Shown here piece by piece: positions 12,551 through 23,372 of a stretch of 44,390 bases of DNA. The notes beneath the pieces were generated by a model, which had not been told where the DNA came from, made no database searches, and saw nothing but the letters and a program-made list of their open reading frames with translations. This DNA is from Planctomycetia bacterium (GTDB lineage: Bacteria > Planctomycetota > UBA8108 > SXIK01), in contig SXIK01000206.1 in the NCBI GenBank assembly GCA_005772855.1, forward strand, positions 1 through 44,390. Direction: 5' to 3'. Positions within the stretch are counted from its first letter, which is position 1, and the number at the start of each line of letters is the position of its first letter. The position numbers were made by a program, and so were the translations under genes.

Positions 12551-14983
12551 TCAGTCCTCGTTGACCCCGTCAGTTTCACGCCACTGGCCGCCGCGCTCGA
12601 TACGCAGGGTCTTGATCTCAAATGGCTTGAGGAAGACGTGGGCCTCGACTTTCGGATTGCCCAGACGCAGCACCGCCTCGCAGCCAACTCCAAGAGACTC
12701 GGCAATACGGAGCACCAGAGCCAGCTTGTCGGAGGAACGTTTGCATGCGCACAGCCTCACACCGAGTGGCTCGAGGCTCAAGAAGTCGACCCGATTCTGA
12801 TGGGGCAGCAGCCGTACGGACAGGCCCACGAGGACGCTCGGCGGAGCGTCGAGCCAGTCGGCAAGCCCGCTCAAGTTTGGGATCACCGTGCTCACCTCTC
12901 CAGCTGTGATGAGGAAGCGCAGATCATGCACGCCCTGGTCCATGAGCTCGCAGTCTGAATCGTCCAGTTTCTGACCCGACTCGTGGCAGGAAGGCACGGA
13001 GCGAAGCACGGAGATGCGCGCCTCGCCCTCGGACGCCTCGAGCCCGTGCTGGCCGCAATGGACAACGGCGATTGCGGCGCTCTTCCCACCGACCTGGCCA
13101 CCCAACGCAAACCATCGTCCGTGCCATCGCTCGAGACCGTCCGCCGGGAGAAAGAAGTTGGCGCCGGCAGACTCGCAGCGCGGCGCGGCCGAGGCGAACA
13201 CGGTCGGGACGGTGAGCTTCAGTCGCTTCCGGTGTTCATTCCAGTGGATCCGAAGCTGGAGCTCGAGCACGGGCCAACCGGCGTACGCCACGACCCGCAT
13301 CACGATGCGGCTCTGCGCGAAACAAAGCACGCTCTCGGTGACGGACCGAATCGGTCCCTTCACAAGGACACGAGGCCCCTCCGACAGCTTGAACCGGCCA
13401 ACACACGGTCCAGAGACTGCGGCCGCGTGCCCGGAGGATCCACCGAGGTCCTCGAACACCAGGGGCTCGAAGAGCGGACCACGCAAGCACTCAAGTCCCT
13501 GAATGGGCTCCAGCGAGGTGAGAAGCCCACGGCTCGGATCGATAACGTGAGACAGCGCCGCGGGCGCTGGCCAGAGTCTGCGAGTGCCTGGACAGACCTC
13601 GACCTTGAAATACGAAGCTCCGACCCCCGGCAGGTCGGCGCCAAAGACGACCTTTCGCCGCCAACCATGCGATGGGAGGAGCGACGCCGGCGGGTCCTCC
13701 TGGCAGGGGACCTCGGTGCCATCTGGCGAAAAGACTCGCAGGTGCCACTCGCCTCCAGCTTGGTGGCCATGGTCGAGCGAGCACTCGGCCTCGAGGGGCA
13801 TCCGCGCAAGCCCGGGGTTCGCATTCAGGACGACGAGCGGCCGAGAAACGCGCCAGGGCACCCCACGCTGCAGATCCACGGCAGCCACAAGCCGCAGCCG
13901 TCGCAGCACCTCCTCCGCCTTGCCGTACAGGTCGAGCGTATCGAGAGCGCCCGCTTCCGTGAGCGAGCCGGAAAGCGACTTTTGCGCGTCGTTGGTCACG
14001 TGCGAGCGCCAGCTCTCCAGGAGCTCTTCTTCGGGATACTGCGCTTCGCGCAAGCTCCAGGCGGCCGCGCAAAGTGACTCCGTTTGCGTCAGGAGACCCA
14101 GGCTGCGACGCGCACGCCGCTTGATTCTGGCGTGCGAGGTGTGGGACGCGGCGCCAGCGCCGAGCCCGTCGTCCGTGCTGATCGGCAATCCGGCCAGAGC
14201 GTCGGAGAGCAACTCCAGAAGGCCCTCGAAGGTGCCGTGGACTACCTCCAAGTGGCCGTTTGCGCTCCTGAAGTCGTTGATGCGGCGCAAGTCATCGCGA
14301 CCCCCTCCCCCTTCCGCGTCACCCAGGCCCCAGAAGACCGGGACGGGCTGCTTCGAGAGCAGGGCCAGATCTCGAGCAGCCTCGAGGCGCGCTCCCAGGC
14401 CCTGCGAATCAATGCGCTCGAATCCGACGGGAATTCTCAGACCCGCCAAATCCGAATCGTCTGCGCCAAGCCAACGAACGAGACGCCTCGAGTCGGCCAG
14501 GCTCGTGGTGAGCCCAGGATGGCTCACGCTCTCGGGCCCCAAACTGAGGAGAAGCTCGTAACCCGCCTGCCGAAGTAGCTGGGGCAAGCCGGGCGGCAAG
14601 CCGATCGTCTCGAGCGCACAGGCGACCCGTGGCCGGGCCTTGAAGCGTTCCAGAAAATACTTTCGAGCGAACGCCAGGTTTCTGATGAGCGCCTCAAGCC
14701 CGGCATATCGAAGCTCGGGTTCGACCCACCAACCCCCACTCACACACCACCTGCGGTCAGCGGCAAGGTGCTGAATCTCCCTAAAAAGTGGGGGGTCCAA
14801 CCGCTCAACCGCGAGGTAAGCCCAGGCCTCACCGTGGCTGAAAGAAAGCCTGGGATCCTCGCGAAGCATCTCCGCCGCCGTGCGGAAGACTTGCAACGCT
14901 TGCGCACAGCCCTCCTCCCAGCGCCACTGCCAGGAGGGATGGAGGCGCGTTGTGAAGATAAGGTGTATCGAGGGCTGAGTCAT
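12551..14983 (-). CDS. GH38-fold (alpha-mannosidase-like) protein, catalytic residues replaced
   Basis: An 810-residue protein with the overall pattern of glycoside hydrolase family 38. Family landmarks are GGWWVEPE (about 83-90), GLPQLLRQAG (about 132-141), GLGDAEGGGG (about 219-228) and, in the middle domain, the SLSGS turn (about 336-340), followed by a C-terminal beta-rich mannosidase domain. However, the zinc pair normally in HxDPxWLW is RLHPSWQW (Arg13, His15), the nucleophile Asp of PDxFG is Glu125 in LETIG, and the HD of QFHD is Gln334-Lys335. By my reading all zinc and nucleophile positions are changed, so it may be an inactive or repurposed relative. The ATG at 14983 begins MTQPSIHLIF; no signal peptide is seen. 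The sugar isomerase follows downstream. Confidence 0.8.
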   Translation of the reverse strand: MTQPSIHLIFTTRLHPSWQWRWEEGCAQALQVFRTAAEMLREDPRLSFSHGEAWAYLAVERLDPPLFREIQHLAADRRWCVSGGWWVEPELRYAGLEALIRNLAFARKYFLERFKARPRVACALETIGLPPGLPQLLRQAGYELLLSLGPESVSHPGLTTSLADSRRLVRWLGADDSDLAGLRIPVGFERIDSQGLGARLEAARDLALLSKQPVPVFWGLGDAEGGGGRDDLRRINDFRSANGHLEVVHGTFEGLLELLSDALAGLPISTDDGLGAGAASHTSHARIKRRARRSLGLLTQTESLCAAAWSLREAQYPEEELLESWRSHVTNDAQKSLSGSLTEAGALDTLDLYGKAEEVLRRLRLVAAVDLQRGVPWRVSRPLVVLNANPGLARMPLEAECSLDHGHQAGGEWHLRVFSPDGTEVPCQEDPPASLLPSHGWRRKVVFGADLPGVGASYFKVEVCPGTRRLWPAPAALSHVIDPSRGLLTSLEPIQGLECLRGPLFEPLVFEDLGGSSGHAAAVSGPCVGRFKLSEGPRVLVKGPIRSVTESVLCFAQSRIVMRVVAYAGWPVLELQLRIHWNEHRKRLKLTVPTVFASAAPRCESAGANFFLPADGLERWHGRWFALGGQVGGKSAAIAVVHCGQHGLEASEGEARISVLRSVPSCHESGQKLDDSDCELMDQGVHDLRFLITAGEVSTVIPNLSGLADWLDAPPSVLVGLSVRLLPHQNRVDFLSLEPLGVRLCACKRSSDKLALVLRIAESLGVGCEAVLRLGNPKVEAHVFLKPFEIKTLRIERGGQWRETDGVNED

Positions 14984-15343
14984 TTACTTGCAAGACACCA
15001 TCGCGGCGCCCGAGTGCATATCGGCAAACCTGCCCACAGAACCCAGGCCTACATTTCCGCACAAGGTGTGCGCTCCCGACAGGGCCCGATAACCATGCCC
15101 AGGAGACCGCCAAGGAAGCAAGAGGCGCTCACGCTCTTCACGTTCAAGTATGCGCGCCAAGCTCGCTAAACTACAGGCGGACGGCGAGGAACAATTGCGG
15201 GTCAAGCTCGAACGAGAATCTGCACCCAGGATCCCAATCATGGCCGCGCGGTGCCCTGGCTTCGCAGGGAAGGATATCTTCACACCACCCAGCCCCCGGA
15301 CGGCCTGCCAGTTTACAAGTCGGCGCGGAGATCGGGCCTATCT

Positions 15344-15378
15344 TTGCGAATTACCGCTGAAAACAGAGCACTTCGCAA
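15344..15378. repeat. Inverted repeat upstream of sigma-54 promoter candidate
   Basis: TTGCGAA at 15344-15350 and TTCGCAA at 15372-15378 are perfect inverted copies separated by 21 bases. They end two bases before the -24 element. They could be a regulator-binding site or a weak stem; the sequence alone does not decide. Confidence 0.35.
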
Positions 15379-15380
15379 GC

Positions 15381-15396
15381 TGGCAAGGGCTTTGCT
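15381..15396 (+). promoter_or_regulatory. Sigma-54 (-24/-12) promoter candidate
   Basis: TGGCAAGGGCTTTGCT matches the sigma-54 consensus TGGCACG-N4-TTGCW at every fixed position except one (A for C at the sixth base). The essential GG (15382-15383) and GC (15394-15395) are exactly ten bases apart, and a pyrimidine precedes the T as expected. Initiation would be near 15407, leaving a leader of about 230 bases before the ATG at 15635. Downstream on the same strand, beyond two surface-protein genes, lies a sigma-54 activator, which makes the site more credible. Activity is inferred. Confidence 0.55.
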
Positions 15397-15634
15397 TTAC
15401 CCTTCCCGTAGGTCTGCCCGCCTTGGGACGGATCAAGGTATTCAGAAGCTCGGTGGCCGTGAAAGGTTCTTTCACACCCTACGCGCAGGAGCGTCAAGGG
15501 CTTTTTACAAGGTCGCCGCGCTATCAGTTAAAGCCAATCCGAATGAATGACTTGTAACCGCCTGCCGGGATGGTCCCGGATTTGCGTCAGCGGTATTCAC
15601 AAGTACGGGAAACCACTTTCTTGGAGGTTCTCTG

Positions 15635-17043
15635 ATGCGTTGTCTCCACCGTCAAGCTCTCTGTGTCACCGCTCTCCTGAGCATCTCTGTGTCGGCGAGG
15701 ACTGCAGAGTCCACTTTTATTCGAGGCGATTCGAACGCGGATGCCCGGGTCGACATTGCCGACCCCGTCTTCACGCTGGCTTATAGCTTCCTCGGCAGCA
15801 AGGCGCCAGCCTGTGCTGACGCTGCGGATGCGAATGATGACGGCGCAATGGACATCTCGGATGCGGTCTTCACGCTTTTTTCCTCTTCCAGGGATCGACG
15901 AGGACCCCGCCTGCGCCGTTCCCCGCCGCAGGACTCGACACGACCCCTGACTCGCTTCATTGTGACGCCGGCATGGTGGGCGAAGGAACCCTCCTTCTTG
16001 CGATACACGACACCCCCCCGGCGGACCTTACAGAGTTCTGGATTACAATCCAGGAAGTCCAGGTCACTCAAGCCAACGGTACGGAGCTCCAGGTCTTCCC
16101 ACCGGCCGGCGACCCGACGGCAGAGAAGGTCGTTAACCTGCTCGACAACGCCTCCGCCTCGAGCATCATCGCTTCGATCCCCGTGCCGGCCGGAGAGTAC
16201 AGCGAGGTTGAAATCCGATTCGATCATGCCAGTGCGAGAGCTGGTGAGGCAGAGGTCCTCGTGGTCCCGGACCACGGAGACGTGGAGATCCACCTTCAAG
16301 TCCCCGTCACCGTCACGGACGGAACGCTTAGCGCCCTCGTCCTCGACTTCAACCTCACCTCCTCGCTGACCGACGGCGGAGAGGGCAAGATTTTCTTGAA
16401 CCCCGTGATCGAGAAAGACGATGACGGCGACGACGATGGCGAGGAGAGCGATGTGGAGCTGAAGGAATTCCACGGCACGGTGGCTTCGGTCGACGTGGCC
16501 TCGAATTCGTTTGTGGTCAATCTCTCCGTCCACAAGCGCCGGGGCGAGGAGACTGTAACCGCTGGCCAGGTGACGGTCGTGGTCGACGAGAAAACGTCGT
16601 ACGAGGACACCGATGGCCTGGCCGCACTTCAAGAGGGCCAGGAGGTCGAGGTGAAGGGCGATCTTCGTGAGGACGGAAGTGTTCTCGCGTCCGAAATCGA
16701 GCTGAAGTCGAATGACGAGGGTGAAGATCTCGACGACGACGGCGTGGAGGATGAAGATGAGCACGACGGTCACGATTCCGACATCGACAACGACGATCAG
16801 CCGAACCACGAGGACGAGGACGACGACAACGACGGAGTGTCGGACGACGACGACTCCGATGACGACAACGACGGCATCGACGACGACTCCGACGAAGACC
16901 ACGTGGACGACGACGGCGTGGACGATCACCACAACGGCGATGGCCATCATGATGACGGTGATGGTGAGGGCGATGAAGCCGGAGAAGGCGACGACCATCC
17001 TGGCGACAACGACGCGACGGACGATGATCCAGCGACCCCCTGA
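15635..17043 (+). CDS. Exported dockerin-like/DUF4382/DUF5666/Asp-rich protein, apparent frameshift
   Basis: One gene read in two frames. The first frame (from ATG 15635, GGAGG eight bases upstream) encodes a signal peptide and paired EF-hand-like dockerin repeats: FIRGDSNADARVDIAD, then ADANDDGAMDISDAVFTL. At the T run 15876-15881 the repeat's expected FLFQG continues only in the -1 frame, which runs to TGA at 17043. Joined, it gives about 469 residues. After the dockerin-like part come a DUF4382-like domain (about 115-240), a DUF5666-like beta domain (about 270-350), and a tail of about 110 residues made mostly of Asp, Glu, His and Gly, resembling thrombospondin type 3 calcium repeats. It is probably a calcium-binding surface protein. 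The break may be a sequencing error, a real mutation, or slippage. Confidence 0.78.
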
Positions 17044-17124
17044 GAGTGCGCCGGTGAACAACGGCCACTCGAATTGCACCGGGCGCGAAATCCCGGCGCG
17101 ACAAGGCTGAGTGCCGGAAGCAGC

Positions 17125-17160
17125 CCGGGGAGCACAGCGAGCCTTTCGTTCGCTCCCCGG
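17125..17160 (+). terminator. Hairpin between the two surface-protein genes
   Basis: CCGGGGAGC at 17125-17133 pairs perfectly with GCTCCCCGG at 17152-17160, a nine-base GC-rich stem with an 18-base loop. It is followed by ATCTGCTATCTTTTGG, which has a short T run. It could be a partial terminator separating the dockerin-like gene from the cohesin-like gene, or a processing site within one transcript. Confidence 0.45.
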
Positions 17161-17204
17161 ATCTGCTATCTTTTGGACATGGAGAGCAGAACTGGAAGAA
17201 CCTC

Positions 17205-18155
17205 ATGAGCCTGACTTTGCGAAGCCGCCGACGCTCGAGCCCGCCCTGGACCCCCCTTGTTGCCTTTTGTGCTTTCGCTGCAACTGTCGGCAGCGCCCAG
17301 GCCGAGGGAATCGAGCCGGAGGACGAGCTGGACGACCGGAAAATTGTGTTCGAAGCGTCCACGGTCGAAGCGCACCCCGGCGAACAGGTGAAGGCCTCCA
17401 TCCGGGTTCATGCGAGAGTCGGCCTGTCCCTCGCAGCGTTTAGCCTCAAGTACGACGTGAACACCTGGAACGTCTCCACTCCTGTTCTGTCGCCAGAGGT
17501 GCAGGAAATCGTCGACAGGAACCCCATGAGCTCCGAGTTCCTCTCCGACCTGGATGACATAACGGGCTGGGTTCAAGCCTCGGTGATCACGGATTTCTCT
17601 GGCCGCCAGGAGTACTCCATTCCCGCGGGAGGCTCCGAGCTCGTGACCCTCGGCATCGAAGTGAAGCAGAACACGCCTGCCGGTACCTATCCGATCCACT
17701 TCGGCCGCGGGGAGGACGACGACGAGGAGGACGAATTTGAAAGCGAGTTCAGAGACTCCCTCGGCAGCCCCATCTACAACCACACGCGCCGGGAAGGCAC
17801 CGAGATCGAGGATGGGGCAGAGTACGACGATGACGGCGACGAGATTGAGCTCAAGGACGGAGCCGTCATCGTGTCCATCCTGGGGGACGTCAACGTCTTC
17901 GCAAGGGGCGACGCAAACGCAGATCGCAAACTCGACATCTCCGATCCAGTTACCATCCTCAGTTTTCTATTCCTCGGCATTAATAACGTGACCTGCCAGG
18001 ATGCCTGCGACTCCAATGACGACGGCAACGTCGATCTCAGCGATTCAGTCACTCTTCTCAATTTTCTCTTTGTCCCTGGAGATAGTAGTGTGACTTTGTC
18101 GACCCAGCTTGTCTCGGACCTGAGCCCTGACAATCTCGGCTGCATTTATTACTGA
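17205..18155 (+). CDS. Exported cohesin-like domain plus dockerin-like repeat protein
   Basis: A 316-residue secreted protein. A signal peptide (Arg-rich start, hydrophobic core, cleavage near SAQA at about residue 34) is followed by a cohesin-like beta-sandwich (about 45-230): VEAHPGEQVKASIRV, SLAAFSLKYDVNTWNV and GGSELVTLGIEVKQNTPAGTYPI are the typical strands. An acidic insert (EDDDEEDEFESEF) interrupts it. Near the C-terminus (about 235-290) are paired dockerin-like repeats, RGDANADRKLDISDPV and DSNDDGNVDLSDSV, with calcium-binding acids in register. Having both a cohesin-like and a dockerin-like module could allow chaining on the cell surface; binding has to be shown. The ATG at 17205 follows GGAAG. 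The kinase-activator gene starts 36 bases downstream. Confidence 0.82.
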   Translation: MSLTLRSRRRSSPPWTPLVAFCAFAATVGSAQAEGIEPEDELDDRKIVFEASTVEAHPGEQVKASIRVHARVGLSLAAFSLKYDVNTWNVSTPVLSPEVQEIVDRNPMSSEFLSDLDDITGWVQASVITDFSGRQEYSIPAGGSELVTLGIEVKQNTPAGTYPIHFGRGEDDDEEDEFESEFRDSLGSPIYNHTRREGTEIEDGAEYDDDGDEIELKDGAVIVSILGDVNVFARGDANADRKLDISDPVTILSFLFLGINNVTCQDACDSNDDGNVDLSDSVTLLNFLFVPGDSSVTLSTQLVSDLSPDNLGCIYY

Positions 18156-18191
18156 ATTTGGGCACGCCAGTGCCTTCGCAAACGACATCTC

Positions 18192-21100
18192 ATGGCAGGA
18201 TCGAAAGCTCGGACTCCCCGCCACCCCCGATATGAGATTCTGCGAAGGCTGGGCACGGGCGGTACGAGCTCGGTATTCCTTGCCCGCGACCGGCTCGACG
18301 GAGGACGAGAGGTGGCGCTCAAGATCTGCCGCCTTGAGGTCTCCCCCGAGGAGATCCTGCGCGAGTTCCGGATCCTGCGCCAGCTCAGGCATCCCGGCAT
18401 AGCGCGAGCCTTCGACTGCGGCCGGATGCCCTCCAGGGGTGCGGCCTATTTCACGCTCGAGCACGTCTCGGGCCCTGGACTTGAGGAGCATACGCGAGCA
18501 CTGCGCCGCGAGGCGGGGGCAAAAACACAAGCTCAAATCGTCTCCCTCTTCCTGCAACTCACATCGGCACTTGCCTACTTGCACGAGAAGGGACTCCTCC
18601 ACCTCGACATCAAGCCCGCGAATGTGATTATTGCGGACAATCGGGTCAAGTTGATCGACTTCGGCCTGTTTCAAAACGTCGAAATCGAGAGGCGTAGCCC
18701 GCCGCGAGGCACCGCATACTACATGGCCCCGGAGGTCATTGACGGGGGGCCGATCGACCACCGAGCCGACCTCTACTCGCTGGGCGTGACGCTGTATCGC
18801 TCGCTGACAGGGCGGATGCCCATCTCTGGGCGCACGGTCGCTGAAATAGCAGCCAACCACCGTACGCTCGTGCCACCTTCTCCTCCCGGTCTACCGGAAG
18901 CCCTCTCGCGAGTGATCCTCAAGATGCTCGCCAAGTCGCCACGACATCGCTTTCAAAGCGCCCGGGACGTGACTGCAGCCCTCGAGGGTGCGGTGCCCGG
19001 GGTCTCCCTTGTGGCAGAACCACAGTTCGAGGAGCCCGACTTTGTCGGGCGAAAGCGCGAGCTCGATGCATTCTTCAACTGGTTCAGTGGTGTGAAACAA
19101 GGCCGAGGCCAGAGATTGCTCGTCTTCGAAGGCGAAGCGGGTATCGGAAAGTCCCGGCTTGCCGAGGCCTGCGCCACCGAGATGCTCGACCTGAGCACTC
19201 AAGTGGTGCCCGTCAAGACTCACGGCGAACGTGATCAGGACGGGCTCAGGCAGGTCATCGAGAAAATCCTTGTCCTCCACCAGGCCTCGCCCACCGAGGA
19301 GCGAAGGTGGAGATTTCTCCTGACTTTTCTGGGAATCGCTTCCGACAAGAAAACCCACCGGGAGATCCAGGATCTCGATCTGGGATCGATAGAATCGCGG
19401 GTTTTCCGCGAAGCCCTCGACGTTCTCGCCGCGCGATCGGCGTATCCCCTTGTCTTCGTGATCGAGGACCTCGGCGCCTCCGATCCACGGCTGGTCCAGT
19501 TCCTGCGGACATTGAGCCTGGCAGCGGGAACGGAGACGCAGCACTTGCGGGTGGGTATCCTGGCAACGCGCAGGATTTCCGCGGGGATTGCCCCCCCACA
19601 GGAGGAATTTGAAGCCTCAGCGGTGAAGACCGTCCGGATGGGTGAGCTGACCCGCGAGGAAGGTCTCGCATTGCTCAACTGCGTTGCGCCGACTCTTTCC
19701 ACAACGGAGGCGAACCGCATCGTCAAGGCCGGCCGCGGAAACCCCGCTCTCCTGCTGGAGAAGCTTCGAGATGACCGCCAGCCGGAAGAGAGCAGCAGGG
19801 AGGACTCGCCCCGCGAGTCGCAAGTGTCCGAAGCTCTGGCAACCGCCTACGCGGCAAGAGTGACAGAACTGACCACGACCGAACGGAAGGCGCTCATCCC
19901 TCTGGCGCTCGCCGAGCGGCCACTGAGCGAGTCAACCGTTCGCGGACTTGCGAAGCTTGACAGGAAGGAGTGCTCGGCGGTGATTCAGCGGCTTGCGCGG
20001 TCTGGCCTTCTGGGGGGCACGAAGGCCGGATACCACGTCACTCACCGCGCCCGCGCGACCGTGGTCGCGGCCCTTGAATCTAGAGAGATCCAGTCGGCCC
20101 ACGACCGACTCGGAACTCAGTTCCTGAAAGATCCTCGAAGCCAGAGAGAAGCAGCACATCACCTCTTGCGCGCCGGGCAACTGCAACTCGGGCTTCAGTC
20201 GGCAGAGCGGAGCGTCGATGCTCTGCGAGCCGCAGGCCGCATCGAGGAGGCGATCGCAACCCTGCGTGATGCGATCGAGCGCGTGGATGCAGGCCGCGAT
20301 CGATCGCGGCTCCTCGAGCGTCTTGGCGAACTGGAGGCGAGGAGCGGCCGCTTTGACGCCGCGGCGGCTGCGTTCCATGAGGCTCTCGCCTTCCACACCG
20401 GCGACCCAACCGCAAGACTTCGACTTCTTCGGAAGATAGGCGGAATTCATCAGCGTCGCGGAGAGAATGAGGCCTCGAGGAAAGCGTTCGAGGAAGCCCT
20501 GGGCATCGTGGAAACTGTCGACGATCTGGGGGAGCAGCTCTACCTTTTCCAGGAGCTCTCGGCGTTCCACTTGTTCCGCGGCGACTTCGCAAAGGCGTCG
20601 ACCTTTGCCAACCGGGGCCTCGAGATACTCGCCTCCGAGCGATCGAGGATCCTGCGGAAAGAGGAATTTGCACAGCACGCGCTGAACTTTCACTCGGCCG
20701 CCGGCCACGTGTTTCTCCGGCAGTTCGAGTACGAACAAGCATCCAGGGAGCTCGTCCAGGGACTCAAGCACGCCGAAAAGCTAGGGGCGCTCTCGAACGC
20801 GGCCCTGCTGTGGAACAACCTCGGAATCGCCTACAGCCAGGATAACCGCCTGCGAGAGGCTCTGCAGGCCTACCGGCGCGCCGGGGAGCTTTCGAGGAGT
20901 CTGGGCGACAACACCGCTGTCTTCAGCATTCAGTGCAACATGGCCACGCTTCAGGCCCGCCTGGGCAAGCTTCCGGCAGCCGAGGAGGCCTTGCGAATCG
21001 CTGGCGAGATGCCACACGCCGGGAAATCGCTGAGGGCCAAGCTCTTTCTCACTCACACGAGGGGCCTTGTCGAGAGGATCGCTCTTCGTGACTCGAAGGC

Positions 21101-23372
21101 CAGATGGGATGCCACCATTCAAATCGCAGAGAAGCTGCCGGACCCTCTCTTTGCAGCCTATGGGCGCCTCTGCCAGCTCGAGAACGACATACACTTCGGG
21201 AGATGGGGCCTGGCCAGGTCGATGGGCGAACAACTCTCCGGCAGAAAGGGCAAGGACCCCCACTTCGATCGAGCCATCAATGCTCGCCTCGCCTGCCTTA
21301 CGGCCCTTTGCGGGTTAAAGGACGAGGCCCGGACGAGACTCGAGACATCGATCAAGGCCCAAACATCGATCAAGGCCCAGGGATCCGCGCTGTACGTGGA
21401 TCTCTGGGATTCCGTCTATCAGGGTCAGGCATTGCTCGAGCTGGGTGATCTCAAAGTCGCAGAGGCTCTCCTGACGACAACCCAGGCCGCATTCGAGAAG
21501 TCGCACCAGTGGCCCAGCGTGCTCGAATGCGCCATGATCCTGGCCGACCTGGCACTTCGGAGGCGAGACGCGCCAGCAGCAGCGAAGCACTTGCGCTCAG
21601 CAGCGAAGGCCCTGGCTTCCCATGACTGTCCCGGCGGCTCCCGACGGGCGAACGTCCGCATGCCCTACCTCGGTGCCCGGCTCGCACTCTTGACCTCCAA
21701 GGCAGACCGAGGGGAGCTCGAAGACCGAATCGCAGATGCGGTGGGCAGCCTCGATCCACACGACACGTCGGAGGTTGTCTGGCTCCTGGCCCTGGTGGCA
21801 GCCGAGACGGGTGATCCGGTGAGGGCGCGGAAGGCAAACGCTCTGAAACGGTCGTTCGCGGCCCATCTTGCTTCCGGGGACAAGCATGCCTACCTCGCGA
21901 GAGACCACCGCGCCCGATTGGGCCTCCTCGCGCAGCATTCCATGGGCTACCAAGACGCCACCGATTCGCAGGCCTGCCGACACTACGAGACAATCATCAA
22001 GCTGGCGCAAATTCAACAGCCGAGCCAGGCCCTGCAAGTGGTTCTCGAAGGCGCCGAGGCGAAAGCGGGGGCCGTCTTCCTTGGCGATACGCCCCGGGCA
22101 GCGATCGCGCACGGCCTGGGACAGCGCTCCGAGTCAGAGCTCGAGGATCTGCGCAGACAGGCCCTCGAGGCAGAGTCCCGGGAATCGGCGAACGCGACCT
22201 TCATTCCGCTTCGGATCCACTCCGGGGCCAGGGGGGTCCTCTACCTCGAGCTTGCTCCTCAAAAGCTCGAGGGCGCAACTCTGCGCTTTCTCGAGACGGC
22301 TACAGCCTTGCTGGCAAATGTCCTCCCTCCCACCCCGCGAAGTCGTGACGAGCGTCGTGAGCTTACCGGCTCGCTCACGAAAGCTCGGGCCAGCACGATA
22401 ACCCTTTCCACGGCGACTTTCGGGCAGACCGAGTCCCCCCGCATGAAGGAGCTCCTCGATTGGGTCCTCCGCACGCGAGGCTCCGAGCTCCCCGTCCTGA
22501 TCCTCGGTGAATCCGGCTCGGGCAAGGATTATTTGGCTCGTTACATCCACTCCCTGAGCCCAAGAGCTGAAGGCCCCTTCATCGCACAGGACTGCGCCTC
22601 CGTGCCCGAGGGGCTCCTCGAGGCCGACATCTTCGGCTACGAGTCAGGCGCGTTCACTGGCGCCGAGCGTTCAAAAACCGGGTACATTTTCGCCGCTAAT
22701 GGAGGCACTTACTACCTCGACAACGTCGACTCACTCTCACTAGAGTCGCAGGCGAAGCTCCTGCGCGTGCTCGAGGAAAAATCAGTTCGTCCGCTCGGGA
22801 GCAGCGTGGAGCGGAAGACCGATGTCAGGGTCATCGCGTCGTCGCAGCACGATTTGAAGGAGCTTTCACTCCAGGGCGCATTTCGCAAGGACCTCTATTA
22901 CCGTCTTGCGGGGATCAACCTCCATGTTCCACCGCTCCGGGAGCGCGCGGAGGATATTCCGCTGCTCCTCCACCAAATTCAGCGACAGGTCCCGGGCAAG
23001 CCGATCGAGTTCAAGCCGCAAGCGATCGATGCCTTGAAGCGGTACGCCTGGCCGGGAAATGTGCGCGAGCTCGAGACCGTAGTGCGCCGGCTCTCCGTCA
23101 CAACGGAAGGTGCCGTCGACGAAACCCGCGTGGCCGAGGTGCTTGGCAATGGCGACGTGGCCCCGTCCTTCCCCCGGTGGCTCTTCGAGGGCAAGACGTT
23201 CGAGCAGGCGATCGAGGAGGTGAAGCGGGAGTACCTCCTCGACCTCTTCGAGCGCCATGCGGGCGATCTCGCCGAGATTGCGAAGGAGATGCGCACCACC
23301 AAGCGAAACGTCTATTTCCGCTTCGCCCAGGTGGGAATCAAGCCTGTCGACCTGCGGGGAGGACTGGCGTAG
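18192..23372 (+). CDS. Ser/Thr kinase-ATPase-TPR-sigma-54 activator fusion
   Basis: A 1726-residue cytoplasmic regulator. N-terminal Ser/Thr kinase (about 14-265): GTGGTSSV loop, Lys44 (VALKI), HLDIKPAN (137-144, with Leu in place of the Arg of HRD), DFG 156-158, APE 179-181. A signalling ATPase of the AAA_16 type follows (about 283-540): FVGRKREL, Walker A GEAGIGKS (314-321), Walker B-like VFVIED (421-426). TPR-like helices fill about 640-1200. A divergent GAF-like region spans about 1265-1375. The sigma-54 AAA+ domain (about 1415-1640) has Walker A GESGSGKD (1439-1446), the sigma-54-contacting GAFTGA (1486-1491), and Walker B YYLDNVD, where Asn1511 stands in for the usual Glu. A Fis-type HTH ends the protein (about 1675-1715). 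It lies 36 bases after the cohesin-like gene and may share its transcript. No good Shine-Dalgarno is seen. Confidence 0.93.
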   Translation: MAGSKARTPRHPRYEILRRLGTGGTSSVFLARDRLDGGREVALKICRLEVSPEEILREFRILRQLRHPGIARAFDCGRMPSRGAAYFTLEHVSGPGLEEHTRALRREAGAKTQAQIVSLFLQLTSALAYLHEKGLLHLDIKPANVIIADNRVKLIDFGLFQNVEIERRSPPRGTAYYMAPEVIDGGPIDHRADLYSLGVTLYRSLTGRMPISGRTVAEIAANHRTLVPPSPPGLPEALSRVILKMLAKSPRHRFQSARDVTAALEGAVPGVSLVAEPQFEEPDFVGRKRELDAFFNWFSGVKQGRGQRLLVFEGEAGIGKSRLAEACATEMLDLSTQVVPVKTHGERDQDGLRQVIEKILVLHQASPTEERRWRFLLTFLGIASDKKTHREIQDLDLGSIESRVFREALDVLAARSAYPLVFVIEDLGASDPRLVQFLRTLSLAAGTETQHLRVGILATRRISAGIAPPQEEFEASAVKTVRMGELTREEGLALLNCVAPTLSTTEANRIVKAGRGNPALLLEKLRDDRQPEESSREDSPRESQVSEALATAYAARVTELTTTERKALIPLALAERPLSESTVRGLAKLDRKECSAVIQRLARSGLLGGTKAGYHVTHRARATVVAALESREIQSAHDRLGTQFLKDPRSQREAAHHLLRAGQLQLGLQSAERSVDALRAAGRIEEAIATLRDAIERVDAGRDRSRLLERLGELEARSGRFDAAAAAFHEALAFHTGDPTARLRLLRKIGGIHQRRGENEASRKAFEEALGIVETVDDLGEQLYLFQELSAFHLFRGDFAKASTFANRGLEILASERSRILRKEEFAQHALNFHSAAGHVFLRQFEYEQASRELVQGLKHAEKLGALSNAALLWNNLGIAYSQDNRLREALQAYRRAGELSRSLGDNTAVFSIQCNMATLQARLGKLPAAEEALRIAGEMPHAGKSLRAKLFLTHTRGLVERIALRDSKARWDATIQIAEKLPDPLFAAYGRLCQLENDIHFGRWGLARSMGEQLSGRKGKDPHFDRAINARLACLTALCGLKDEARTRLETSIKAQTSIKAQGSALYVDLWDSVYQGQALLELGDLKVAEALLTTTQAAFEKSHQWPSVLECAMILADLALRRRDAPAAAKHLRSAAKALASHDCPGGSRRANVRMPYLGARLALLTSKADRGELEDRIADAVGSLDPHDTSEVVWLLALVAAETGDPVRARKANALKRSFAAHLASGDKHAYLARDHRARLGLLAQHSMGYQDATDSQACRHYETIIKLAQIQQPSQALQVVLEGAEAKAGAVFLGDTPRAAIAHGLGQRSESELEDLRRQALEAESRESANATFIPLRIHSGARGVLYLELAPQKLEGATLRFLETATALLANVLPPTPRSRDERRELTGSLTKARASTITLSTATFGQTESPRMKELLDWVLRTRGSELPVLILGESGSGKDYLARYIHSLSPRAEGPFIAQDCASVPEGLLEADIFGYESGAFTGAERSKTGYIFAANGGTYYLDNVDSLSLESQAKLLRVLEEKSVRPLGSSVERKTDVRVIASSQHDLKELSLQGAFRKDLYYRLAGINLHVPPLRERAEDIPLLLHQIQRQVPGKPIEFKPQAIDALKRYAWPGNVRELETVVRRLSVTTEGAVDETRVAEVLGNGDVAPSFPRWLFEGKTFEQAIEEVKREYLLDLFERHAGDLAEIAKEMRTTKRNVYFRFAQVGIKPVDLRGGLA
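21345..21380 (+). repeat. 18-base in-frame tandem duplication
   Basis: Two adjacent 18-base units (21345-21362 and 21363-21380) differ at one base and encode TSIKAQ twice within the TPR region of the large regulator. It looks like a recent in-frame duplication in a linker or helix end. Confidence 0.8.

Follow-up and report, generated by a model that had tools for sequence, protein, structure and literature searches.

Genes for a dockerin-like and a cohesin-domain secreted protein stand directly ahead of a gene for a kinase-linked sigma-54 activator on a contig of a Planctomycetia bacterium (SXIK01000206.1 of GCA_005772855.1; the whole 44,390-nucleotide stretch analysed is called the window here), raising the question of which promoters drive them and whether the neighbouring activator acts there. 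A first-pass annotation, made from the sequence alone, had placed one near-consensus sigma-54 core in front of the dockerin-like gene and had suggested that the module is regulated by its own activator. Very probably, the flagged site and a neighbouring one form a pair of adjacent sigma-54 promoters ahead of these surface-protein genes. The presence of rpoN and of an activator, the upstream dyads and a related unit in another genus all support a sigma-54 promoter at this position, though not as the sole promoter.

Module composition and relatives

The order dockerin-like gene, cohesin gene, activator gene is as first annotated (Table 1). The dockerin-like repeats in the window score 8.8 and 15.2 bits against PF00404, under the cut-off of 22.9, and dockerin matches above the cut-off occur in module homologues at three other loci (L113, 23.5 bits; L127, 33.0; L131, 23.3). 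The frame break in the dockerin-like gene may be an assembly error, a pseudogene or a site of slippage; the orthologue in G001 (locus L075) is open. The window's own genome (G000) has an unusually large set of dockerin-like matches, 148 at E<=1e-5.

Table 1 Features of the module and its upstream region, in window coordinates
Feature	Position	Strand	Remarks
P1 UAS1', degenerate palindrome copy	15267-15283	+	10/14 to GTGAAAG-N3-CTTTCAC; 114 bp before -24 element
P1 UAS2 half-site TTTACAAG	15312-15319	+	69 bp before -24 element
P1 -24/-12 core TGGCAAGGGCTTTGCT	15381-15396	+	predicted start ~15407
P2 UAS1, perfect palindrome GTGAAAGGTTCTTTCAC	15459-15475	strand-neutral	GTGAAAG-N3-CTTTCAC
P2 UAS2 CGTCAAGGGCTTTTTACA	15492-15509	+	TGTAA-N8-TTACA-type dyad; 79 bp before -24 element
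P2 -24/-12 core TGGTCCCGGATTTGCG	15571-15586	+	64 bp before ATG; predicted start ~15597
Gene for dockerin-like, DUF4382 and DUF5666 secreted protein	15635-17043	+	a T run near 15880 interrupts the frame
GC-rich hairpin	17125-17160	+	between dockerin-like and cohesin genes; possible attenuator
Gene for cohesin-domain secreted protein with C-terminal dockerin-like repeats	17205-18155	+	PF00963 26.2 bits, cut-off 24.1
Kinase-linked sigma-54 activator gene	18192-23372	+	

Orthologues of the DUF4382-dockerin, cohesin and kinase-linked activator genes lie on one contig of G001, a genome of the same family (53% identity), contig C40 of the window's own genome carries a paralogous set (45%), and a more distant set is found in G003 (35%). 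The gene ahead of the cohesin gene varies between these sets, and its product, as read from the sequences, bears dockerin-like repeats in each. Kinase-linked activators in G001, G003, G005 and G007 also adjoin dockerin-like genes.

The distal core and its chance expectation

The distal core, P1, matches 11 of the 12 consensus positions, the sole departure from TGGCACG-N4-TTGCW being a C to A change, and has the exact GG-N10-GC spacing, as the first-pass annotation had stated; the distance of 239 bases that it gave to the dockerin-like gene corresponds to 238 bases between the core and the ATG at 15635. Allowing one mismatch to the sigma-54 consensus, P1 is the sole match in the window, and it alone carries an exact TGGCA-N6-TTGC; at up to two mismatches there are 7 sites versus a mean of 6.05 in shuffles. 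When the 651-bp intergenic region (14984-15634) was dinucleotide-shuffled 5000 times, the best score reached at least 11/12 in 12 cases. The core falls within a mechanically called ORF of 135 aa without a Pfam match.

The consensus match of P1 by itself is weak evidence and proves little, because the pattern TGGCAMNNNNNTTGCW has five matches in the 5.03-Mb genome versus nine for the reversed control. On the concern about chance matches inside coding regions that was raised with the initial annotation, four of the five genome matches, P1 included, lie within ORFs of 100 aa or longer as called mechanically, and the remaining one (L006) is intergenic. Genome-wide scans for a larger regulon, using the core motif or the half-site plus core, gave no excess over reversed controls. 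The intergenic site (L006, 1501-1516) is a 12/12 core situated 89 bp ahead of two adjacent Hsp20-domain ORFs, and is likely to be a second sigma-54 target in this genome.

An rpoN gene, on which the first-pass annotation had made its reading depend, is present in two complete copies, both of which score above the cut-off for the AID, CBD and DBD domains. The two genes (contigs C161 and C106; L001 and L002) have diverged from each other, and the RpoN box is readable in both translations.

The sequence upstream of P1 adds to the core. The palindrome-like match, within a register of 108-118, was equalled in 58 of 20000 shuffles of the upstream sequence and the hexamer of the half-site was reproduced in 35 of 20000, while the two occurred jointly in 0 of 20000. 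When the 171-bp context of P1 was compared with 1266 candidate sites, the best match was the unit at L075 2307 in G001, which belongs to another genus and whose core also reaches 11/12; with the core masked, this unit falls to rank 4. On the minus strand, a weak core (8/12; window 15221-15236) faces a GH38-like gene and has the P1 half-site in register, perhaps by chance.

A second, proximal unit

Inverted repeats with 7-bp arms were searched 105-122 bp before GG-N10-GC sites scoring at least 8/12, across 480,276 bases and both strands. The 29 resulting rows, some of them nested, included the upstream regions of four modules, in which the distance from repeat to core is 112 bp (window), 113 bp (L075), 115 bp (L076) and 116-117 bp (L113). 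In the window, the 112-bp register points to a second core, that of the proximal unit P2. The earlier statement that the window holds no site comparable to P1 is therefore correct by consensus score, but it overlooked the weaker 15571 site, which is at least equally favoured on comparative grounds.

The P2 core matches 8 of 12 consensus positions, and its distance to the ATG is close to that in other modules (67-151 bp). At up to one mismatch, its palindrome has one copy in the window's own genome and one in G001, the nearest relative, and both copies are perfect and stand ahead of orthologous dockerin genes. A version of the palindrome with spacer 2 gave no useful matches, the actual spacer being 3. 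The P2 unit lies ~190 bp downstream of the P1 unit and the offsets of its elements repeat, with UAS1 preceding the -24 element by about 112-114 bp in both units. Sequence similarity between P1 and P2 is weak (34 and 12 of 2000 shuffles under two scoring schemes), and their context likeness ranks 39 of 1266. P2 combines the better enhancer with the usual ATG distance and P1 has the better core; P2 is at least as likely as P1 to be the working promoter.

In G001, the unit directed towards the cohesin and activator genes is P1-like and the one directed towards the dockerin gene is P2-like. Within L075 1-2811, the dockerin gene has the opposite orientation to that in the window, and a second, truncated copy of it is still found ahead of the cohesin gene, a layout that may reflect rearrangement or misassembly at acidic repeats.

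Recurrence of the unit in other modules

The elements and their spacings recur in orthologous and paralogous modules. Of 12 module upstream regions, each taken as 450 bp, 11 contain the hexamer TTTACA/TGTAAA; the background is 85 occurrences in 628,909 bases, counted over every locus retrieved, the modules among them. The TGTAA/TTACA dyad peaks across modules at spacer 8 alone (spacers 4-12 tested). For comparison with controls, a limit of 200 bp from the start was set for a core of at least 8/12 and one of 300 bp for the hexamer. By these measures, 10 of 11 modules have the core and 9 of 11 have core plus hexamer. Among 120 control upstream regions, 32 have a core (that is, they reach the score of P2), 12 the hexamer and 2 both, and both double-positive controls proved to be activator genes divergent from dockerin genes (L127 and L132).

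A register test gave a similar picture: 10 of 1271 GG-N10-GC sites (at least 8/12) carry the UAS2 half-site in register, and seven of these ten are units ahead of dockerin or cohesin genes, two in the window (P1 and P2), two in L075 and one each in L076, L105 and L114. In six units, from the window's own genome and two others, the half-site lies 79-82 bp before the -24 element. As the register was derived from five of the seven units and the P1 half-site had been seen before the test, L114 is the independent unit. It has a perfect TGTAA-N8-TTACA, 80 bp before the core CGGCATTGGCTTTGCA, which in turn lies 71 bp ahead of the gene for a homologue of the window's cohesin protein, itself giving no Pfam cohesin match. 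Dockerin-like ORFs near activators in L129 (two), L138 and L140 were tested and had no such promoter architecture, and the dockerin gene of L132 has no site above 5/12; L109, which starts at a contig end, was left out. A multiple alignment of the seven units was gappy and was not used.

Across 29 genomes, a search for the exact dyad together with any GG-N10-GC found 8 matches, and 0 in controls. Just one of the 8, L162 (the L114 cohesin homologue), has a strong core at that distance; L163 corresponds to the L112 module, with the core 44 bp from the dyad, and matches other than L160-L163 and L165 look accidental on inspection. At L160, L161 and L165, in three other genomes of the class, TGTAA-N8-TTACA dyads lie close ahead of sigma-54 activator genes, that of L160 being of the FHA/GAF type, which suggests that these activator genes may be self-regulated.

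The activator and its glutamate switch

The product of the gene at 18192 comprises a Ser/Thr kinase, an AAA_16 (STAND) domain, TPRs, a sigma-54 activator domain with GAFTGA (PF00158, 195.9 bits) and an AAA lid. Walker A, GAFTGA and the arginine fingers are present in an alignment to NtrC1 (1ny6), and a Pfam domain search found no receiver domain. The C terminus resembles a Fis-like helix-turn-helix; it has no Pfam helix-turn-helix match at E<=0.01, and the NCBIfam PrsR and AtoC models align through to their C-terminal ends, at residues 1716 and 1720. The score against the PrsR model (TIGR02915) is 230.7 bits, under the cut-off of 502.6.

The glutamate switch (residues about 1450-1510) reads LDN and AQD, versus LDE and ALN in NtrC1, so that Asn stands at the Walker B Glu and Asp at the switch Asn. 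This exchange is common to the activators of G001 C517, G001 C602 and G000 C40, and the G003 C25 activator has Asn at both switch positions. Two earlier papers describe the Walker B Glu and the switch Asn as required in position for hydrolysis (PMC12054792, PMC7175178), and the replacement of the Walker B Glu by Asn could impair ATP hydrolysis in the 18192 product. The exchanged pair, which would amount to a rewired ATPase within a sigma-54 activator, offers a natural test of the coupling between ATP hydrolysis and promoter opening.

Expression of the activator gene

The proposal that the module's own activator regulates its production finds support elsewhere in the family more than in the window. 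Neither the cohesin nor the activator gene of the window has a core of at least 8/12 at 350 bp or less from its start, and a hairpin intervenes, so expression of the activator here would need read-through or another promoter. The window hairpin is modest (z -1.66; 12 of 200 shuffles fold equally well), and the corresponding hairpins of three relatives are strong, with z of -4.1 (L075), -5.0 (L076) and -6.3 (L105). Divergent activator genes in other modules have their own core (9/12 in L113, 10/12 in L127 and 10/12 in L132), so that self-regulation is plausible across the family; in the window it would be possible by an indirect route.

A proposed circuit and its alternatives

Taken together, these observations make it probable that the flagged site is the distal and the 15571 site the proximal member of a tandem pair of sigma-54 units, and that the cluster's kinase-linked activator acts at their upstream sites. 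In such a circuit, sigma-54 RNA polymerase would sit closed on the P1 and P2 cores, each preceded by a UAS1 palindrome and a UAS2 dyad or half-site three helical turns apart. The activator, anchored at these upstream sites by its C-terminal Fis-like helix-turn-helix, would reach the promoter by looping and open it; the kinase-TPR input half would sense a signal, so that the dockerin and cohesin proteins would be made only then. The palindrome is single-copy and travels with the activator gene, making this activator the natural candidate for it. Binding of the dyads by this activator and the existence of the signal are inferred, and either P1 or P2 may be the one in use.

A possible but doubtful reading is that P2 alone is functional, the flagged site being either a duplicate that has decayed or a fortuitous match left upstream of the real enhancer. 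It would account for the perfect, genome-unique palindrome of P2 and an ATG distance like that of other modules, as well as for the degenerate palindrome of P1, its position upstream of UAS1 and the lack of genome-wide enrichment of its motif. However, the P1 core is far better than that of P2, the joint occurrence of its own half-site and UAS1-like repeat in register was not matched by any shuffle, and its context finds its rank-1 match in another genus, there too with an 11/12 core. P2 as sole promoter with P1 as a decoy was the initial reading, and was shifted by the P1 shuffles, the register test and the L075 2307 context.

Two further alternatives concern the regulator. It is unlikely that the -24/-12 sites answer to another sigma-54 activator of the cell; PF00158 matches number 29 in the genome (other AAA+ proteins may account for the weakest) and UAS2-like dyads also directly precede other activator kinds in the class (L160, L161 and L165), but the palindrome is single-copy and linked to the module in two genera, and dockerin and cohesin genes with such promoters recur beside kinase-linked activators. 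It is quite improbable that the palindrome and dyads serve a different type of regulator, such as a repressor or one-component activator, with a housekeeping sigma start and coincidental -24/-12 matches. The single sigma-70-like match in 14900-18300 is inside a gene, the core-to-dyad distance is fixed in seven units, and the co-located regulators found are all sigma-54 activators; these points weigh against the modest -24/-12 scores of several modules and against the differing palindrome of the paralogous C40 module (AGGGATG-N5-CATCCCT), which occurs despite a similar activator helix-turn-helix.

With the proposed tandem arrangement driven by the kinase-linked activator, a brief promoter annotation becomes a circuit open to testing, which specifies exact enhancer sites and a pair of cores, an activator that receives kinase input, and an architecture that recurs beside other dockerin/cohesin genes. 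A more speculative extension, which we hold only tentatively, is that dedicated circuits of this kind occur across the class, in which the kinase-STAND-TPR-activator protein would sense the neighbouring cohesin/dockerin assembly and switch its production via a private enhancer, with the ATPase of the subfamily at this locus rewired.

Comparison with known systems

Classical sigma-54 promoters, such as those served by NtrC, NifA and PspF, have a GG-N10-GC core, dyads roughly 80-200 bp upstream and an AAA+ activator with GAFTGA. The window shares all three features and differs in its dyads (TGTAA-N8-TTACA and GTGAAAG-N3-CTTTCAC), its kinase input and the replaced Walker B Glu. Like cellulosomal systems, the module encodes secreted proteins with cohesin and dockerin-like modules; unlike them, its dockerin-like repeats in the window remain below the Pfam cut-off, and no cellulase was seen among the three genes.

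In the open-licence literature, we found no account of a dockerin/cohesin circuit with a sigma-54 promoter, and none of a kinase joined to a sigma-54 domain, of which earlier descriptions may exist elsewhere; dockerin and cohesin are absent from the main text of a sigma-54 regulon survey of 2025 (PMC12316311). The nearest described system is the PEP-CTERM promoter system, for which Haft et al. (2006, PMC1569441) describe PrsK/PrsR together with an activator motif and a -24/-12 motif. The two systems share genes for exported surface proteins, long intergenic regions, an activator motif plus -24/-12 elements, and a dedicated activator and kinase. The PEP-CTERM system has a histidine kinase, a separate response regulator and many target genes, whereas in the window a single polypeptide, encoded next to its presumed target, joins a Ser/Thr kinase, STAND/TPR domains and the activator, and the palindrome has one copy. 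With the circuit proposed here, sigma-54 control of exported surface proteins, known for PEP-CTERM genes, would also cover cohesin/dockerin proteins.
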